IMG/VR virus record: IMGVR_UViG_3300035698_025839
Span: 1-24,973 of that record
Direction: 5' to 3' (one strand)
Source: a virus
Length of the DNA stretch: 24,973 nt
Shown here piece after piece: positions 1 to 20,662 of the stretch. Under the pieces are notes generated by a model, which worked only from the letters and a program-made list of their open reading frames with translations, was not told the DNA's origin and did not search any database. Position 1 is the first letter of the stretch, and each line of letters opens with the position of its first letter. A program made the translations under genes and the position numbers.

Positions 1-1910
1 GTTCCATCAACGTCAATTTTTAATATGCCACCTGTCGTTATGTTAGATGTTCCATTATCAATAGCACCAAATCCAGATGTAATAGATCCTGCATTAAGTG
101 CCCCGACCGTTGTTAAGCTAGAGGTTAAAACACCTGTTCCGAGAGTTGTCGCATTTAAAACAGATACTGAATTAATATAGTAAGCATTTCCGGTAATTGT
201 ATTTATACCAGATGCATCAAACGTTGTCTGAATCGCCCCAGCGGTTGTTATGCTTAAAGCATCTGTGGCATGAACATACGTTAAAGCACCTGTATTGGCT
301 GTACTATCTGAAAATCCAATTATACTTAACCCAGTGGTAGCGCACACAAGTTGCAGTGCTGCTGATGTGTCGCCCTCAATGACAATGCCATCAGAATTCG
401 GATTAAAAGACGGATTTCCGCTTGAGTTTGTCGCTACTGTGACATGCAATACCGCTTCCGGCGCAGCATTTCCAAAACCCGTAAACCCACTGCTTGTATC
501 TACAAATAAGTCAGTCGTATTAACAATAAAATCGCCCGTGGTAGACAGAGCAACATTTAATGACTGGCCAGCCAATGGCGTAATATCTACTGATCCACTA
601 GTTGAACTAATCGTATTACCATTTAAATTTAAGTTGTCCACCTGAAGCTCAGTCAAGGTGCCTAAGTTAGTAAGGCTTGAGTTAACAACAGTGGCGCCTA
701 AAGTCGTGGCATTTAAAACACTAACGGCATTAATATAGAATTCTTTACCGGTTACTAAATTTATACCATTATCATAAATATCTAATATGCTGGTGCCATC
801 AACGCTAAATCTAAACAGCCCTTTATTGGCTGCAGCAGAGGCTACATCTGTCTCAAATAAAACATAATCTAATGTCTGTGCACCAGTATCATAAATAGCT
901 TGAAAATGAACCTCTTCAGCGTCGGTCGCCCCCATTCTTATCTGAGGGTTACCATCGTTAACCGCCTCATAAATAGTGATTGTGTCATCATTTAAGTTAA
1001 TACTGTCGACAATAAGCTCACCTACCGTGACAGTTGCTGTAGAATCAATTAATGTAGTTAATGTTGCACCTGAACCAGAGGTAATAATACCATTAGAGCC
1101 GGTTGCTGTAATAGAACCAGACGAAGGTGTAACAGTACCTGAGTCTGTAACAATTGAGGTTAATACAATACCTGAAGTAGTTAATGTATTATTCGTCTTT
1201 GTAATACCTGTTCCAGCTACGACATTAGACTCAAATGTTATTGCATCCGTACCAATAATAGCAACATCACTCGTTACTAACCACTGAGTTTTTGCATTGA
1301 TTGTTCCATTTGAAACACCTACCATGTCTCCATTTTCTATATTTTCAGAATTATCAAAATCCAATGTTCTTTCAATTATCCAAGCAACCGCACCAGAACC
1401 TGCATTAATTACTTTATATATACCATTTTGGAATGTTGTCGTCTGATTCTTGACTAAAATTCTATCATTTACAACTAGATTTACACTATCAATAGCTAAC
1501 AATGCGAGTGTTCCACTGTTAGTTAAACGAGCGCCAACACCCAGAGCCCCATTGTCATAGGTAGACACAAGATTTGCTGTTGTTCCAACCTTTGCAATTT
1601 GCTGAACATTGGTGTCCTGAACGGCATCATCAACATACTGCTTAGTAGCGGCCTGAAGTGCAGTTGATGGGTCTCCAGCAAGAATTAAAGCCCCTGTCAT
1701 TGTTCCGCCTGACAATAATAATCTAGCAGCCAAGTCAGTTGTCAGATTGGTAACCTGTAATTCTGTTATTTGAATATTATCTTGAATATAATCAAGCAAT
1801 ATTGTCACAGTGGTACGATAGGTAATCCCACCACTGATCGGGTCAACTAAAATGTTATCTGTATTTTCAAGAGTCTCTCTTAACGTGTGAGTTCTAACTG
1901 GATTAGACAT
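1..1910 (-). CDS. tail fibre protein, N-terminal part (runs off left edge)
   Basis: The minus-strand frame is open from an ATG at 1910 to the window edge (636 codons), so the C-terminal end is missing. The start has an AGGA Shine-Dalgarno site and lies 3 bases after the previous gene's stop. Around residues 65-95 it carries the common phage-fibre motif LSGGTMTGALILAGDP followed by AATKQYVDD. The rest is Ser/Thr/Asn/Gly-rich, as in trimeric beta-structured fibres. A block ending in YINxVSVLNATTLG occurs twice (654-768 and 100-209). No enzymatic motif is seen, and any receptor-binding tip or intramolecular chaperone would be outside the window. Its place last in the virion block, after the receptor-binding protein, fits a long side or tail fibre. 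The fibre call is fairly sure; its exact role is inferred. Confidence 0.8.
   Translation of the reverse strand, partial: MSNPVRTHTLRETLENTDNILVDPISGGITYRTTVTILLDYIQDNIQITELQVTNLTTDLAARLLLSGGTMTGALILAGDPSTALQAATKQYVDDAVQDTNVQQIAKVGTTANLVSTYDNGALGVGARLTNSGTLALLAIDSVNLVVNDRILVKNQTTTFQNGIYKVINAGSGAVAWIIERTLDFDNSENIENGDMVGVSNGTINAKTQWLVTSDVAIIGTDAITFESNVVAGTGITKTNNTLTTSGIVLTSIVTDSGTVTPSSGSITATGSNGIITSGSGATLTTLIDSTATVTVGELIVDSINLNDDTITIYEAVNDGNPQIRMGATDAEEVHFQAIYDTGAQTLDYVLFETDVASAAANKGLFRFSVDGTSILDIYDNGINLVTGKEFYINAVSVLNATTLGATVVNSSLTNLGTLTELQVDNLNLNGNTISSTSGSVDITPLAGQSLNVALSTTGDFIVNTTDLFVDTSSGFTGFGNAAPEAVLHVTVATNSSGNPSFNPNSDGIVIEGDTSAALQLVCATTGLSIIGFSDSTANTGALTYVHATDALSITTAGAIQTTFDASGINTITGNAYYINSVSVLNATTLGTGVLTSSLTTVGALNAGSITSGFGAIDNGTSNITTGGILKIDVDG
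100..209 (-). repeat. tail fibre internal repeat, copy 2
   Basis: This is the second copy of a roughly 37-residue block in the fibre gene. It encodes a segment from GIN..TGNAYYIN through SVSVLNATTLG to SSLTTVGAL and aligns without gaps to the copy at 654-768. The two copies are about 550 bases apart. Repeats of this kind usually mark a repeated shaft or knob unit in a fibre. Confidence 0.6.
654..768 (-). repeat. tail fibre internal repeat, copy 1
   Basis: This is the first copy in reading order. It encodes GINLVTGKEFYIN, then AVSVLNATTLG, then SSLTNLGTL. The core VSVLNATTLG is identical in both copies, while the DNA has diverged at synonymous sites, so the duplication is old or under protein-level selection. 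Confidence 0.6.
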
Positions 1911-14299: not shown

Positions 14300-16453
14300 T
14301 TAACTTTGATCAGCAACATGATCTCTAACATCTTTAGACATGTTATGAACAACTTCAATCATCTCTTTCACGTGAGACTGCTTCATGTCCATTTCTTTCA
14401 GAGCCATGTCTGTTGCAGCTCTAGCTTTTTCAGCTGAAGCTTTTTCACGAGCAACAGCCTGTTCAGCAGATGCATTATCAATCTGAGACATAGTTTGAGC
14501 TGTTTGGTTGTCTGCGTTTTGTTTTTTAATGTCAATATCAGAAAGCTTTATAGATTGGTCAAACTTGTCATTTTGTATCTTAGCCTGAACCTCAGACTCT
14601 TTAGCTTTCGCCGCTATAAATCTTGGATCGTTCATCATTGCTTGTTGCTGCTCTTGTTTCATTTCTTGTTGCTGTTTAGCTAAGTTTTCCTGATCCTTTT
14701 TAGCAATCTCTTTTAATGTATCAATTCCACGTATTTCAAGATTATCTAAAATAACTGACAACCCTTCAGCCCCCTCCATAAGTTTTGCAAACTCAGGCAG
14801 AGCATGAGATAGAGATTGAATTTGTTGCAATGCTTCAGCTTTTTGTACAGAGAAGTTTGCACCTGCTTTAACTTCTACCCCAAGGGTGTTATCTCCATAA
14901 TTAAGTTGAATAGAACCGGGCTTATTAACATCTTCATAGCCCCTAGAACCATCTGCATTAACAACAGGCATGCTTCTAGGTGTTGTGTAATAAAGAGGAA
15001 TTAAATGCAAGGCAACTCTATATACTTGAGTCCATCCAGCTAAGTAGTTTGTAATGTATGGAACAAATACCGCATTAGAATTTCTTGACCCTTCCATAAT
15101 TGCTCTACCAGATAGCTGGTTATTGTTTATTCCAAGTGAAGAATCATATGTTCCAAGTGTTGTTTGAAGTAAATTATCACACAAACCAATTGTCGCCATT
15201 ATCTCATTAGGTATAGGTGCCGGCATTAACTGCTGAAGACCAGGCAAAGGTATATTAGTATCATCCTGAAATCCTTTTGTTACCAACAAGGATGCCTTCT
15301 GGTTATCAATTAGATTATTAACATAATTCTCATTATCAGGCATTGCCTCCTGAACAATATGAAATTTGCTTTGAACCATCTTTTCAAGCTCATTTGCTAA
15401 AGATTGAACTGCATAGTTTTTCAACTGCTGAACACCTTTTGCATTATAAACAGCAGATCGTGTTTTCTGGTAGTAACTTCCTGTTACTCCTTCTCTCAAC
15501 ATCTCTGAATCACCATCTATAAAAATAATAGGTAAATATTTAAAGTCTGTCTTAACTGGATCTTCAAGAAATTGGTTGTCTATAAATAGGTACCTAGTAA
15601 TGTTGCTTATTTCAGTCCATCTAGGTTTTCCTTTTATACCAGGTGGTGGGACAGTATCATCGCTGTTTTCCCACTCTAAAATCAGATTGTCATACTCTGA
15701 CTTAAACATGACTTTTCCATTAGCTAGCTGAACAAGCCTTTTTCTTTTAGTCTCTTTCAAGAAAAACTCGCAAACCATGAATATAGATTCAGTTTCTGTC
15801 TTATACGCCCAGTTAAAACCCTCTAATGATCTTGAAAATGAAATTTCTCTAAGATCAATATTTGGATTTACAGCCAAGACTTCTTCTTCAGTCATTGGCA
15901 TTACTTCAAAACAGTACCTTCCATCTGACTTATGAGACTCACGAGCGGTAGGATCCCAGCCACACAATGTAGGGTCAAAAACTCTATCTATTTTTAAAAT
16001 TCTCTCAAAAGACATTTCATGCATATAATCTACAGAGATTTTTATAGAACTAAATCCTCCTACAATAGTATCCTTGAAAGATTGATCTCTACATCCAGAT
16101 GAAGAGCTATCGGATATCATATGTCTAAAATGACCCTCTAAAAATTTTATAAGCCTAGGGTCAGCGGTTTCAGCATCATCATAAGATTTAACAATAACAT
16201 CGGGTAATTTTCCTGCAAACTCACCCCTTTGCCTTGCAACAATAGGCTGAACAATATTTGCCTCAATATTTGGCTTGTTAAATGCCTTCATGACTTCATG
16301 CTCATCATCAGATATTGTTGTATTGTAAATGAAGTTTTTTGAGCTTATGAAATCTTTATAGTTCTGTTCAAAATATTTTCTTGAATCTACGACATATTCC
16401 TTTAATTTAATTAAAAGATCGTCATTTTTAGAACTAGAGGAAACATTGTACAT
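14300..16453 (-). CDS. portal protein, P22 gp1-like
   Basis: About 717-720 residues, matching P22 portal (725). The dodecameric portal sits at one capsid vertex, binds the terminase during packaging and then the tail adaptor. Family-like segments are KAFNKPNIEANIVQPIVARQ near residue 60, FKDTIVGGFSSIKISVD near 125, RVFDPTLCGWDPTARE near 165, and NQLSGRAIMEGSRNSNAVFV near 450. The last 150 residues are Gln/Lys/Glu-rich and helical (KQQQEMKQEQQQAMM), corresponding to the C-terminal barrel helix of P22-type portals. I choose the ATG at 16453 because AAGGA lies 8 bases upstream. The ATG at 16462 abuts the AAGG and so has no usable spacing, though it would add only 3 residues. Confidence 0.88.
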   Translation of the reverse strand: MYNVSSSSKNDDLLIKLKEYVVDSRKYFEQNYKDFISSKNFIYNTTISDDEHEVMKAFNKPNIEANIVQPIVARQRGEFAGKLPDVIVKSYDDAETADPRLIKFLEGHFRHMISDSSSSGCRDQSFKDTIVGGFSSIKISVDYMHEMSFERILKIDRVFDPTLCGWDPTARESHKSDGRYCFEVMPMTEEEVLAVNPNIDLREISFSRSLEGFNWAYKTETESIFMVCEFFLKETKRKRLVQLANGKVMFKSEYDNLILEWENSDDTVPPPGIKGKPRWTEISNITRYLFIDNQFLEDPVKTDFKYLPIIFIDGDSEMLREGVTGSYYQKTRSAVYNAKGVQQLKNYAVQSLANELEKMVQSKFHIVQEAMPDNENYVNNLIDNQKASLLVTKGFQDDTNIPLPGLQQLMPAPIPNEIMATIGLCDNLLQTTLGTYDSSLGINNNQLSGRAIMEGSRNSNAVFVPYITNYLAGWTQVYRVALHLIPLYYTTPRSMPVVNADGSRGYEDVNKPGSIQLNYGDNTLGVEVKAGANFSVQKAEALQQIQSLSHALPEFAKLMEGAEGLSVILDNLEIRGIDTLKEIAKKDQENLAKQQQEMKQEQQQAMMNDPRFIAAKAKESEVQAKIQNDKFDQSIKLSDIDIKKQNADNQTAQTMSQIDNASAEQAVAREKASAEKARAATDMALKEMDMKQSHVKEMIEVVHNMSKDVRDHVADQS

Positions 16454-16502
16454 ACTATTCATCCTTAAGATATTATTGCCATTAATGTTACCATATATGG
16501 AA

Positions 16503-18053
16503 CTATCTTCGAATAGAATTTAGTCTTCGCACCCTCTCCCCTATTCTTGATGCTATTTCATCAGATTTCTTGTTATTTTGATCATTGAAAGCTCTTACAG
16601 GAAATGCAAATGTTAAACAAAGAGCGTCAGCCTCATCAGGAGACTTTATACCACGAGTTTTTAAAGAATCTTTTGATTCTATCTTAAGTCGTCCGTTAGA
16701 ATCAGGGCAATAACGCAATGAACATAAATCGGACTGAAGTGAATCTATGTCTGGTATTTGAACAGGATAGTCTATAATCCACTCCTTCATCTCACCCCAC
16801 ATCTCAGATCGTTTATTAAAATACCTATCGCCTCTTAGGGCAACACCACCAAAATTAACACCTACAACGGTTCCTTTAAACCCAAGCTCTATAAGCCTAT
16901 CGTATATTCCAGCTCCAAGGCCACCTATATCAACAAAGCATTTATCTATATTTAAATCAGATATAAGGTTATTTATTATTCCAACAGTCTCCATTGTTTG
17001 CATTTTAGACAGGCTTTTAATATAGGTAACTTTACGTCCCTGTCTAACAACAATTGATGTTCTATCATTTCCAAACCTAGCTGGATCAACACCCATGATA
17101 ATAGGACCAGATGCATCACACTCACACTTTCTAGCGGCCATTACTGATGCATTATCAATAAATATATCATCTCCACTGTAAATAAAAGCCTCGGAAGCAT
17201 TGCATGGATATTCTTGCTTAAAATAAACCTCACCGTTTATACCGCCTTGAGTAAACTCAACTACCTTTATTCGTCTAAACATAAGCTGATGTCTATTTAG
17301 ATTATAAAGCTCAACAAGTTGATGCTCATAATCACTTAAAACAAAATTATCTGATGGTTCGGAAACATACTCATCTTGCCAAAACCAGGGTATGAAGATT
17401 GGAATAAACTCAGATTCTCCATTAATAGCCAGCTGCCATTGATCATGAAAAAAATCACCCATTCCATGGGCAGTAGACTCTAGGTATATCTCAGTACCAG
17501 GTGCATTTGGAACAGCCTGAAAGATACCACGAGCATGCTCACCTGCATTTTTCCAATAAGCTAACTCTGATCCATGAAGAAATTGAATGGTCTGTCCACG
17601 TCCAACGGAGCTATTACCAGCTGTTCCAACTTTGTAACCAGAATCTAAGGTACCAAAAATAAGCTCTTTAGAATTACTTTTATCAACATCAGGCTTTAAT
17701 TCTTTTGGACAGTTATCTAGAAAACGCTCACCCATACTGAACAGATCCTTTGTGGCATCTCCGGTGTTAGTAAGAATAAATGCTCTAGTTCCTGTATGGT
17801 GAGTTACTTTCCAGTACATTCTACCCTGTAATAAGGTGGAACATCCTTGTTGCCTACCCTTAACAATTATAACCCTAACCTTCCCAGTTTTACCTTTCTG
17901 ATTTTCCATTATATTATGGATATGCAATTGGACTTTATTAAGAACAAATTTAGAAATACCACCAATTTTAGGTCTTACCATTAAACAGTTAGCAGCGTAG
18001 AAAGGAAAATCTACCATAAACCGTTTTCTTAAATTAATCTCTTCCTGGTCCAT
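16503..18053 (-). CDS. terL: terminase large subunit (ATPase-nuclease)
   Basis: A 516-residue packaging motor (P22 gp2 is 499). The N-terminal ATPase has a Walker A-like KGRQQGCST at residues 65-73 and a Walker B/catalytic glutamate in QFLHGSELAYW (157-167, Glu163). The C-terminal RNase H-like nuclease has the acidic triad: Asp323 in IIMGVDPARFG, Asp375 in CFVDIGGLG, and Asp473/Asp476 in SPDEADAL. All are intact, so the protein should be active. It cuts concatemeric DNA and drives it through the portal. It lies just before the portal as in P22. It is separated from the small subunit by the accessory island. AAGGA lies about 15 bases before the ATG, longer than ideal. Confidence 0.96.
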   Translation of the reverse strand: MDQEEINLRKRFMVDFPFYAANCLMVRPKIGGISKFVLNKVQLHIHNIMENQKGKTGKVRVIIVKGRQQGCSTLLQGRMYWKVTHHTGTRAFILTNTGDATKDLFSMGERFLDNCPKELKPDVDKSNSKELIFGTLDSGYKVGTAGNSSVGRGQTIQFLHGSELAYWKNAGEHARGIFQAVPNAPGTEIYLESTAHGMGDFFHDQWQLAINGESEFIPIFIPWFWQDEYVSEPSDNFVLSDYEHQLVELYNLNRHQLMFRRIKVVEFTQGGINGEVYFKQEYPCNASEAFIYSGDDIFIDNASVMAARKCECDASGPIIMGVDPARFGNDRTSIVVRQGRKVTYIKSLSKMQTMETVGIINNLISDLNIDKCFVDIGGLGAGIYDRLIELGFKGTVVGVNFGGVALRGDRYFNKRSEMWGEMKEWIIDYPVQIPDIDSLQSDLCSLRYCPDSNGRLKIESKDSLKTRGIKSPDEADALCLTFAFPVRAFNDQNNKKSDEIASRIGERVRRLNSIRR

Positions 18054-18253: not shown

Positions 18254-18341
18254 CATGCCTTCCCCATCTATCATACCAATACAATGTTACAACTCCAACA
18301 ACTATTGCAATGCACAATGTAAATATCATAAAACTAATCAT
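18246..18341 (-). CDS. small single-span membrane protein, 31 aa
   Basis: A 31-residue ORF whose ATG overlaps the stop of the nicotinamide transferase-like gene (ATGA), a strong hint of translational coupling. Residues 2-22 are hydrophobic (ISFMIFTLCIAIVVGVVTLY), followed by a charged tail (DRWGRHGD), so the orientation is probably N-out or inserted with the tail in the cytoplasm by the positive-inside rule. It may be part of the NAD+ cassette transcript or simply a linked moron. No family is recognised. Confidence 0.52.
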   Translation of the reverse strand: MISFMIFTLCIAIVVGVVTLYWYDRWGRHGD

Positions 18342-19726
18342 TTTGTGGTAGACATCCTTATATCTTTAATATTTATATTTTCTAGAAGCTTCCCATCACA
18401 AAATACAGTCTTCAAGTCTCCACTTTCCTCTTCTGTCTCGGTACATTTATCTTTAACAACCCCATCATTAATACTTATCAATCCAGTCAATGACTTTTTA
18501 TTAGGATCAGTTATTGGATCTTTGTATATATTTATATAAGACCCATTTATTTTTGCTCTAGTAGCCTTGAATGAAAATCCAAGGTCATCTCTGCTATGTG
18601 ACTGAAGCAATAATCCACCAACTCCTATTGTCAAATTGCTAGAAGCCCATCCTTTTTTATACATAGTCTCAAGAATATTCTCAAAATTATCAAGAGTCAT
18701 TCCATCTCCATATATAACCCCAATCTTCTCATTTAGAACCTTACATCCATGTGAGTTTAAACTGTAACCAAAAACTTCAGACAAAAGTTCAAACACACCT
18801 TTCTGATCTTCAGTTCCATTTAAAATATCATTTGGGTTTCCACTATCAGGCCTAAAAACAACCTTCCCATCACGTGATAATATCTCATCTTTTAATTCTC
18901 TGGCAATAACAGAAACAGTATTAAAAATATCATATGTATCAGCGACTATGCTGACTATTCCAGTAGGGTAATTAGATAACATACTGCGAAACGCCTTAAT
19001 CTCTCCGTCCCTTCCGAAGCTTGCCATAACACTGTGCTCAGATGCTGGAACAGAGCAGCCTATTAAGTAATCATCTTCTAAACCATCAGAGTAAAAATCA
19101 TTTATATACTTCAACGCAACAACCGTATCAGTACCCACAAAATTAACAAGGTGAGCTGCTCCACTTATCATAGCCGTTTCATTTGAAGAAACGCCTCGAT
19201 ATCCAAAATCATGAACAGAATAAGGAAGGTGAGATCTACTGTCACAGGTTGTAAGAGCGTATTTTCTTACAATGTTTTTGTATTTAAAACTAGCTGAAGC
19301 CACGGTAATTGGATTCCATAAATGAAGTAACATAGATTCTAAAAATCCTACGCACCAATAAAAATCTGGATGTGTGTTTACAATTGTCAAAACAACTGTT
19401 TTAGCATCAACAACAGAACCTTCTTTAAGAGCCTTTATTTTTACAGGCCAATACCCGAGCTTTCCTAAAGAATATATCTTCTCCTTAACTGATTCAGGAC
19501 ATGGTCCTAGCATCTGTGCTCTGTATTTAATAAATTCTTCGCAATCTGCCATCGTCACTGTCGACAATAGGTATTTTTTTATCAGGCCTTGAAGTCCAAA
19601 TATAACTATTTTTTTATATTTTCTGTCAGATCTAGTATGCAAATACGAGTATATTTCTGTAGTACCTTGTGGATATTGCTCCATATGGCCCATCTTATAA
19701 ACATCTGTAAGTAATAAAGTATTCAT
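18338..19726 (-). CDS. nicotinamide phosphoribosyltransferase-family enzyme (Namat/NadV-like)
   Basis: A 462-residue member of the NAMPT family (human enzyme 491). Conserved parts: TDVYKMGH (Tyr10), DFGYRGVSS (Phe174, Arg177), FVGTDT (Asp200), SVPASEHS (catalytic His231), ADTYDIFN (263-270), FRPDSGNP (Arg292, Asp294), YGDGM (340-342) and KDPITDPNKKS near 402. The family joins nicotinamide to a ribose pyrophosphate donor. Human NAMPT makes NMN from PRPP, while the phage NARP1 member Namat joins nicotinamide to ADP-ribose pyrophosphate and makes NAD+ directly. The glycine loop reads GVGGLLLQ instead of human GSGGGLLQ, close to the phosphate site. The start is coupled to the synthetase stop (ATGA, GAGG 7 bases upstream). 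With no adenylyltransferase in the window, I favour Namat; classical NMN synthesis remains possible. Confidence 0.88.
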   Translation of the reverse strand: MNTLLLTDVYKMGHMEQYPQGTTEIYSYLHTRSDRKYKKIVIFGLQGLIKKYLLSTVTMADCEEFIKYRAQMLGPCPESVKEKIYSLGKLGYWPVKIKALKEGSVVDAKTVVLTIVNTHPDFYWCVGFLESMLLHLWNPITVASASFKYKNIVRKYALTTCDSRSHLPYSVHDFGYRGVSSNETAMISGAAHLVNFVGTDTVVALKYINDFYSDGLEDDYLIGCSVPASEHSVMASFGRDGEIKAFRSMLSNYPTGIVSIVADTYDIFNTVSVIARELKDEILSRDGKVVFRPDSGNPNDILNGTEDQKGVFELLSEVFGYSLNSHGCKVLNEKIGVIYGDGMTLDNFENILETMYKKGWASSNLTIGVGGLLLQSHSRDDLGFSFKATRAKINGSYINIYKDPITDPNKKSLTGLISINDGVVKDKCTETEEESGDLKTVFCDGKLLENINIKDIRMSTTK

Positions 19727-20565
19727 TCAATTTCCTCATCTGAAAATAATTTTAAAACAGTTAACTTTGGATGATCTTGTTGAGGCAATGAATCCGTTGT
19801 CCCGATCGAATCAATGTGCTCAAAAACATCTAATCCTTTAGAGAAAATTCCATGAGTAACAAACAAGTTAACAACTGATGCGCCGTTTTCTTTTAAAATT
19901 CTAGAGGCTTCAATAAATGTTGCACCTCCATCACAAATATCATCATTTATTAAAACAACCTTTCCTTCAACCTTACCGAGAGCATCTTCAAAACCTTCGC
20001 ATGGAGTCAATTCAACTCCAGAGTCTGTACGCTTTTTATCAAACAAAATATTTTCTGATTCACAAAAACCCTCCATCCCTTCTGAATTAAGAAATGATCC
20101 AATACCATGGTTGAAATTTTTATAATTAATATATGCCCCATGCTTAGATGCATTTATATCAGGAAAACACCAAACATCAGGACATATAACTTTATTTTGA
20201 ATATGCATAGGTAAGAGAATGTCTTCAAGCACGCTATAAGAATTTTGACTGAAATCATTATGAATATCATAAGATGATATTTTAACATTTCTTTTTTCAC
20301 AAAAATCTAGAAAAATACTTAAGGTTACACATTCGCCAATATGATGTATTTTATCTTGGCGTGAATACGGAAGGTAGGGACTTCGAATAATTCTTGTCCA
20401 CGATGGATTATGAGTAATATATGCATCAATCAAACACATCCATTCGAAAATATCAGAATCTTTTGTCCACCTTAATAGCATTGTTCCGCATTTCTTAAAG
20501 CTAAGTAATTTTATACCTATCTCTCCGTTTGGAAATTTCCAAGATTCATATTTTGGCTCAAACAT
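19723..20565 (-). CDS. PRPP-synthetase-family enzyme (Adps/Prs-like)
   Basis: A 280-residue protein (bacterial Prs about 315). Visible Prs-family motifs in order: FPNGE (11-15), PYLPYSRQDK (63-72, ATP-site loop), DIHN (100-103, metal/ATP His), NDDICDGGAT (207-216, ribose-phosphate loop), THGIFSKG (237-244) and TTDSLP (256-261). In canonical Prs the loop is DDxxDTGGT; here Thr and one Gly are replaced (DGGAT). Canonical Prs turns ribose-5-phosphate and ATP into PRPP, whereas NARP1 Adps pyrophosphorylates ADP-ribose to ADPR-PP. The adjacent transferase would use the product. It is the first gene after the tRNA. Its Shine-Dalgarno (AGAAG) is weak. The family is sure, the ADP-ribose substrate inferred. 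Confidence 0.88.
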   Translation of the reverse strand: MFEPKYESWKFPNGEIGIKLLSFKKCGTMLLRWTKDSDIFEWMCLIDAYITHNPSWTRIIRSPYLPYSRQDKIHHIGECVTLSIFLDFCEKRNVKISSYDIHNDFSQNSYSVLEDILLPMHIQNKVICPDVWCFPDINASKHGAYINYKNFNHGIGSFLNSEGMEGFCESENILFDKKRTDSGVELTPCEGFEDALGKVEGKVVLINDDICDGGATFIEASRILKENGASVVNLFVTHGIFSKGLDVFEHIDSIGTTDSLPQQDHPKLTVLKLFSDEEIE

Positions 20566-20586: not shown

Positions 20587-20662
20587 TGGTGCTGGAAGTA
20601 AGACTTGAACTCACAACCTACTGCTTACAAGGCAGTTGCTCTACCAGTTGAGCTATTCCAGC
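20587..20662 (-). tRNA. tRNA-Thr (anticodon UGU), CCA encoded
   Basis: A 76-base cloverleaf on the minus strand. The acceptor arm is GCTGGAA pairing with TTCCAGC, the discriminator is A, and the 3' CCA is encoded. The D arm contains AGCTCAACTGGTAGAGCA. The anticodon stem ACTGC/GCAGT encloses loop CTTGTAA with anticodon TGT. The T arm has GTTCAAGTC. All arms appear intact, so it should be functional. It reads the Thr codon ACA, which is frequent in this AT-rich phage. It lies between an unknown small gene and the NAD+ cassette. Confidence 0.96.

Follow-up and report, generated by a model that had tools for sequence, protein, structure and literature searches.

The podoviral gene pair described here may rebuild NAD+ from ADP-ribose with two enzymes, acting in the manner of NARP1 (Adps plus Namat) but with a different adenine pocket, a reading to which we give an even chance. 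In the first step, a protein of Adps type would move pyrophosphate from ATP onto ADP-ribose to give ADPR-PP. In the second, a NAMPT-like protein would join ADPR-PP to nicotinamide and so form NAD+ directly, by the usual phospho-histidine chemistry of the NAMPT type, via His231. Such a route would reverse the destruction of NAD+ by defence effectors (TIR, SIR2 or SEFIR) without an NMN adenylyltransferase (NMNAT), and an anti-defence benefit of the cassette is likely by analogy. Adenine would be held otherwise than in the Namat enzymes of SpbetaL1 and Bas63, perhaps by His377 together with the loop residue R35. The term NARP1-like can be defended as a description of how the cassette would act. 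Membership in NARP1 is not established, and we do not file the cassette there because the Namat signature was looked for and is absent from the second enzyme.

A broader proposal, which we hold at slightly less than even confidence, concerns the NAMPT-like ligases that make up, with this enzyme, a third branch in podoviruses, other phages and some bacteria, so far uncharacterised. These ligases would make NAD+ directly from ADPR-PP with another solution to adenine recognition, and the published clamp signature would miss the whole class.

A coupled gene pair in a P22-like podovirus

The window analysed is the whole of IMG/VR record IMGVR_UViG_3300035698_025839 (24973 bp), which is classed as linear, a class in which records are often fragments. 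Both cassette genes lie on the minus strand at 18338-20565: a Prs-like gene of Adps type (19723..20565; 280 aa, P0002), recognised by Pfam PF14572/PF00156, phrog_619 and diagnostic residues, is followed by a NAMPT-like gene (18338..19726; 462 aa, P0001), recognised by profile matches, trees and a structure model. Their stop and start codons overlap as ATGA (19723..19726, minus strand), an arrangement that suggests translational coupling, and a GAGGAA stretch resembling a Shine-Dalgarno sequence (19732..19737, same strand) ends 5 nt ahead of the NAMPT-like ATG. The sequence-only reading had described just such an overlapping PRPP-synthetase-like and NAMPT-like pair in a P22-like podovirus, and both points hold. 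The virus type follows from a P22_portal match (4.9e-77, Pfam) in addition to terminase, coat and Hc3-type matches. Terminase comparison places it nearest, among isolated phages, to Pseudoalteromonas phage H6/1, a Vibrio phage and Escherichia phages Pondi and PTXU04 (40-48% identity; 37-62 kb).

The large terminase and P22-type portal genes (14300..18053, minus strand; Pfam and phrog matches) lie directly downstream of the cassette. Two podovirus contigs, L001 and L006, repeat the order NAMPT-like gene, terminase, portal; L001 also has the Prs-like gene, and the L006 contig ends before that point. On the other side, a tRNA-Thr(TGT) gene (20587..20662, minus strand) stands 21 nt ahead of the Prs-like start codon. 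It is a neighbour outside the proposed mechanism and may flag the cassette as acquired cargo. At 3-1910 (minus strand), just after the tail gene region, a 636-aa repetitive, tail-fibre-like frame runs off the end of the record.

Two enzymes that point to different products

Homology of both proteins is well beyond chance. The NAMPT-like protein matches Pfam NAPRTase (2.8e-46) and NAMPT_N (1.2e-15), phrog_448 (7.7e-154) and NF006629 (513 bits against a cut-off of 405). Its core catalytic positions are all retained (D13, Y15, F189, R192, D215, H245, R306 and D308 in Namat numbering), and the catalytic, phosphorylated His231 (codon 19034..19036, minus strand) aligns to H245 of SpbetaL1 Namat and is invariant among the aligned homologues. 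The earlier claim that the motifs needed for both enzymes are present, His231 included, is borne out. Structure models confirm the expected folds. That of the NAMPT-like protein (pLDDT 94) matches NAMPT (Z 46.7), Namat (45.1) and the NadV of H. ducreyi, HdNadV (45.0), and that of the Prs-like protein (pLDDT 85) has only PRPP synthetases as best matches (Z 20-22), no Adps structure being known (PMC12774641). Structure prediction had also been proposed as a check on substrate. We rejected fold comparison as a discriminator between Namat and Nampt, as the ligase scores all fall within about 2 Z units and are uninformative on substrate.

Where, then, does the ligase belong? Its relatives at 45-55% identity come from viral contigs, Pedobacter, Mucilaginibacter and a few MAGs. 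Together with about 20 of these sequences the record's protein forms one branch (98 SH-aLRT), and the same 21 sequences group at 99/99 after removal of the clamp and pocket columns. The Nampt enzymes (human, T4-like and NMNAT-linked plasmid NadV) form a separate set (100 SH-aLRT) that excludes the record's protein. It also falls outside the Namat branch in the trees, a placement to be read with an AU test in which forcing the record together with Namat was not rejected (p 0.086). In these trees the phylogenetic check places the ligase on neither of the two sides that had been foreseen. We conclude that it belongs to a third branch beside Namat and Nampt, common to phages and a few bacteria; with the root of this three-way split not placed, a sister relationship to Namat is not claimed.

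Residues around the pocket are mixed. The Namat signature is GSX..X..X.TRD; its two aromatics, F392 and Y396, and the loop residue R40 pack against adenine by stacking, and the clamp loop supplies Arg, Lys or Tyr as its stacking residue (PMC12774641). In the record's protein the equivalent of the clamp helix (residues 370-380, GGLLLQSHSRD; 18587..18619, minus strand; Namat counterpart GSFTYQYNTRD) lacks this signature, with L at 392 and S at 396 by alignment in Namat numbering. The equivalent of the clamp loop (residues 32-38, RSDRKYK; 19613..19633, minus strand) is shorter and variable, and its R35 aligns with SpbetaL1 R40. At position 397, His377 in the record's protein, 20 of the 21 third-branch sequences have His, Trp or Phe, which are candidate substitutes for the lost Y396. 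Positions that contact AMP or the 5'-phosphate carry Nampt-type residues (G190, G362, G391, L393 and L394, Namat numbering).

This Nampt-like clamp and phosphate pocket suits ordinary nicotinamide salvage, in which the Prs-like protein would make PRPP, the NAMPT-like protein would make NMN, and a host or unseen phage NMNAT would complete NAD+. We consider that explanation the main rival, plausible but less likely than reconstitution from ADP-ribose. HdNadV (L100, the nadV of pNAD1; PDB 9ke8/9keo) is a pertinent precedent: this NMN-forming enzyme lies near Namat without carrying the signature. It nests in the Namat branch, has lost both adenine-stacking aromatics and has been solved in complex with NMN, and it therefore serves as a warning that clamp loss can accompany NMN synthesis. 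HdNadV resembles the record's ligase in having no aromatic clamp; it differs in its place in the tree and in its neighbourhood, where no Prs-like gene turned up. Its natural clamp loss is of interest for product specificity.

The mixed residues would also fit a ligase midway between Nampt and Namat, one that accepts PRPP as well as ADPR-PP and hardly discriminates between them. Over 22 columns diagnostic for Namat versus Nampt, the record's protein agrees with Namat at 7, with Nampt at 9 and with neither at 6. The separate branch favours such dual use as well, as does the retained ability of SpbetaL1 Namat to use PRPP (PMC12774641). On the other side, the unplaced root weakens the case for an intermediate, and we regard dual use as rather improbable.

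ADP-ribose as substrate is suggested by the partner. The Prs-like protein matches Pribosyl_synth and Pribosyltran above the Pfam cut-offs and phrog_619 at 3.5e-39, and scores 93.4 bits against TIGR01251, the NCBIfam model of canonical PRPP synthetase, below its cut-off of 113. Over 15 columns diagnostic for Prs versus Adps, it has the Prs residue at none and the Adps residue at 10. Its ribose-phosphate loop (residues 208-217, DDICDGGATF; 19915..19944, minus strand) is of Adps type, DGGATF replacing the DTGGTL of E. coli Prs (DDMIDTGGTL), and the catalytic residues common to Prs and Adps are mostly retained. At these diagnostic residues the partner looks like Adps rather than canonical Prs, which speaks against NMN salvage.

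The partner trees agree for the group and are less decisive for the record. Third-branch partners intermix with Namat partners (a single-clade constraint was rejected, AU 5.7e-24), and joining them to canonical Prs apart from Adps was likewise rejected (AU 5.1e-5). Canonical Prs forms a clade at 100/100 when the record's partner is left out. That partner is itself a long branch, and joining it to canonical Prs was not rejected (p 0.155; p 0.448 without long neighbours), so that the tree leaves it compatible with the Prs of a salvage pathway. The phylogeny proposed earlier as a check therefore separates the group from canonical Prs and not this one member. A starred pairing of the record's partner with L219 was set aside on the program's warning of two long branches joining, and with L219 removed the partner has no supported place in the tree. 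A search using the Prs-like protein as query found no relatives.

Rapid evolution of the partner could be taken as a sign of decayed or non-catalytic genes, as could two of its residues, N138 and K72, which stand where G and R are almost invariably found. Both frames are nonetheless open and coupled, the other catalytic residues are retained and both genes are kept in relatives, which makes decay very improbable. The two predictors of product disagree: by its residues, the partner would point to ADP-ribose and the ligase pocket to PRPP.

Gene neighbourhoods and known systems

We favour ADP-ribose over NMN salvage and dual use because the partner type, the missing NMNAT and a macro-domain context agree. 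A Prs-like gene is adjacent in 25 of 26 evaluable third-branch loci, 175 of 183 Namat loci and none of 6 true Nampt loci, counts that come from loci seeded by similarity to the record and are not unbiased frequencies. The sole evaluable exception in the third branch is an alphaproteobacterial MAG (L118:5001-6440), whose ligase has the motif GKYLRNFTRD and no Prs-like neighbour. The absence of a Prs-like partner from the true Nampt loci tells against NMN salvage, as does an adjacent NadM-like NMNAT in 3 of 4 viral Nampt contigs, indicated by a GRFQ motif in L228 (which carries the Nampt motif) and L243 and by a weak profile match beside L221.

The earlier observation that the record encodes no NMNAT stands, there being no PF01467 match in this 25-kb linear, possibly fragmentary record, an absence that carries little weight on its own. 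Likewise, the neighbourhood of the cassette showed no NMNAT in 13 third-branch viral records, which are or may be fragments. An NMNAT may sit elsewhere in the genome, as salvage would have it. PF01467 matches in third-branch viral records were considered as hidden NMNATs and rejected, those in G004 and G005 being CoaD-like and those in G009 and G030 HldE-like. For NadR-type NMNATs in the bacterial members, the search gave no full-length match; the partial ones lay for the most part in the C-terminal region, and all were far below the cut-off.

In one relative (L003:7265-7774), a macro-domain gene, of a kind that binds or processes ADP-ribose, lies between both cassette genes (26.3 bits, cut-off 22). 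Independently, Vibrio phage Achelous has a macro-domain gene (L092:2929-3405; 31.2 bits) at the corresponding place, between the two genes of its Namat operon. The insertion within a relative's cassette is a further point against salvage through NMN.

The cassette resembles NARP1 of SpbetaL1, Bas63 and Paenibacillus foliorum in gene order and in the overlap or abutment of its Prs-like and NAMPT-like genes, and also in its Adps-type partner residues, the NAMPT catalytic core and the absence of a visible NMNAT. Unlike NARP1, it has a ligase outside the Namat branch, without GSX..X..X.TRD and both adenine-stacking aromatics, and with Nampt-type G at 190, 362 and 391. The NARP1-like interpretation of the sequence-only reading is supported in part: by the diagnostic residues of the first enzyme, by a gene pair without NMNAT that departs from true phage Nampt loci, and by the macro-domain gene in a homologous cassette. 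It is not supported for the second enzyme, which lacks the published Namat signature and in the trees lies outside that branch, with the AU result given above. NARP2 and NadV-NadM salvage (Nampt plus NMNAT, in T4-like Vibrio phages and plasmids) have the same NAMPT catalytic core as the record's ligase, which resembles Nampt in its pocket residues too, but the record's cassette has a Prs-like partner, no NMNAT neighbour and a ligase on a separate branch of the tree.

An Adps-type partner and an aromatic clamp are the two markers that divide direct NAD+ reconstitution from NMN salvage, and they co-occur almost everywhere in the loci examined except in the third branch. If ADP-ribose is the substrate there, searches based on the signature undercount phage systems that reverse NAD+-depleting immunity, and a second mode of gripping adenine in the NAMPT fold is open to study.

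Bacterial members of the third branch (L106, L113, L117 and L105) carry an NrtR gene (Nudix plus winged helix) upstream of the gene pair, a point for NAD+ reconstitution. On the other side, NrtR regulates ordinary NMN salvage too. These NrtR-linked operons of Prs-like and NadV genes, from Pedobacter, Mucilaginibacter and Paceibacterota and Rhodospirillales MAGs, share the ligase branch and partner type of the record, and differ in being chromosomal, in their regulator gene and in a 10-residue clamp motif, GGILRNHSRD in most. The four loci (Bacteroidota, and Paceibacterota and Rhodospirillales MAGs) are candidate host-encoded versions of the gene pair.
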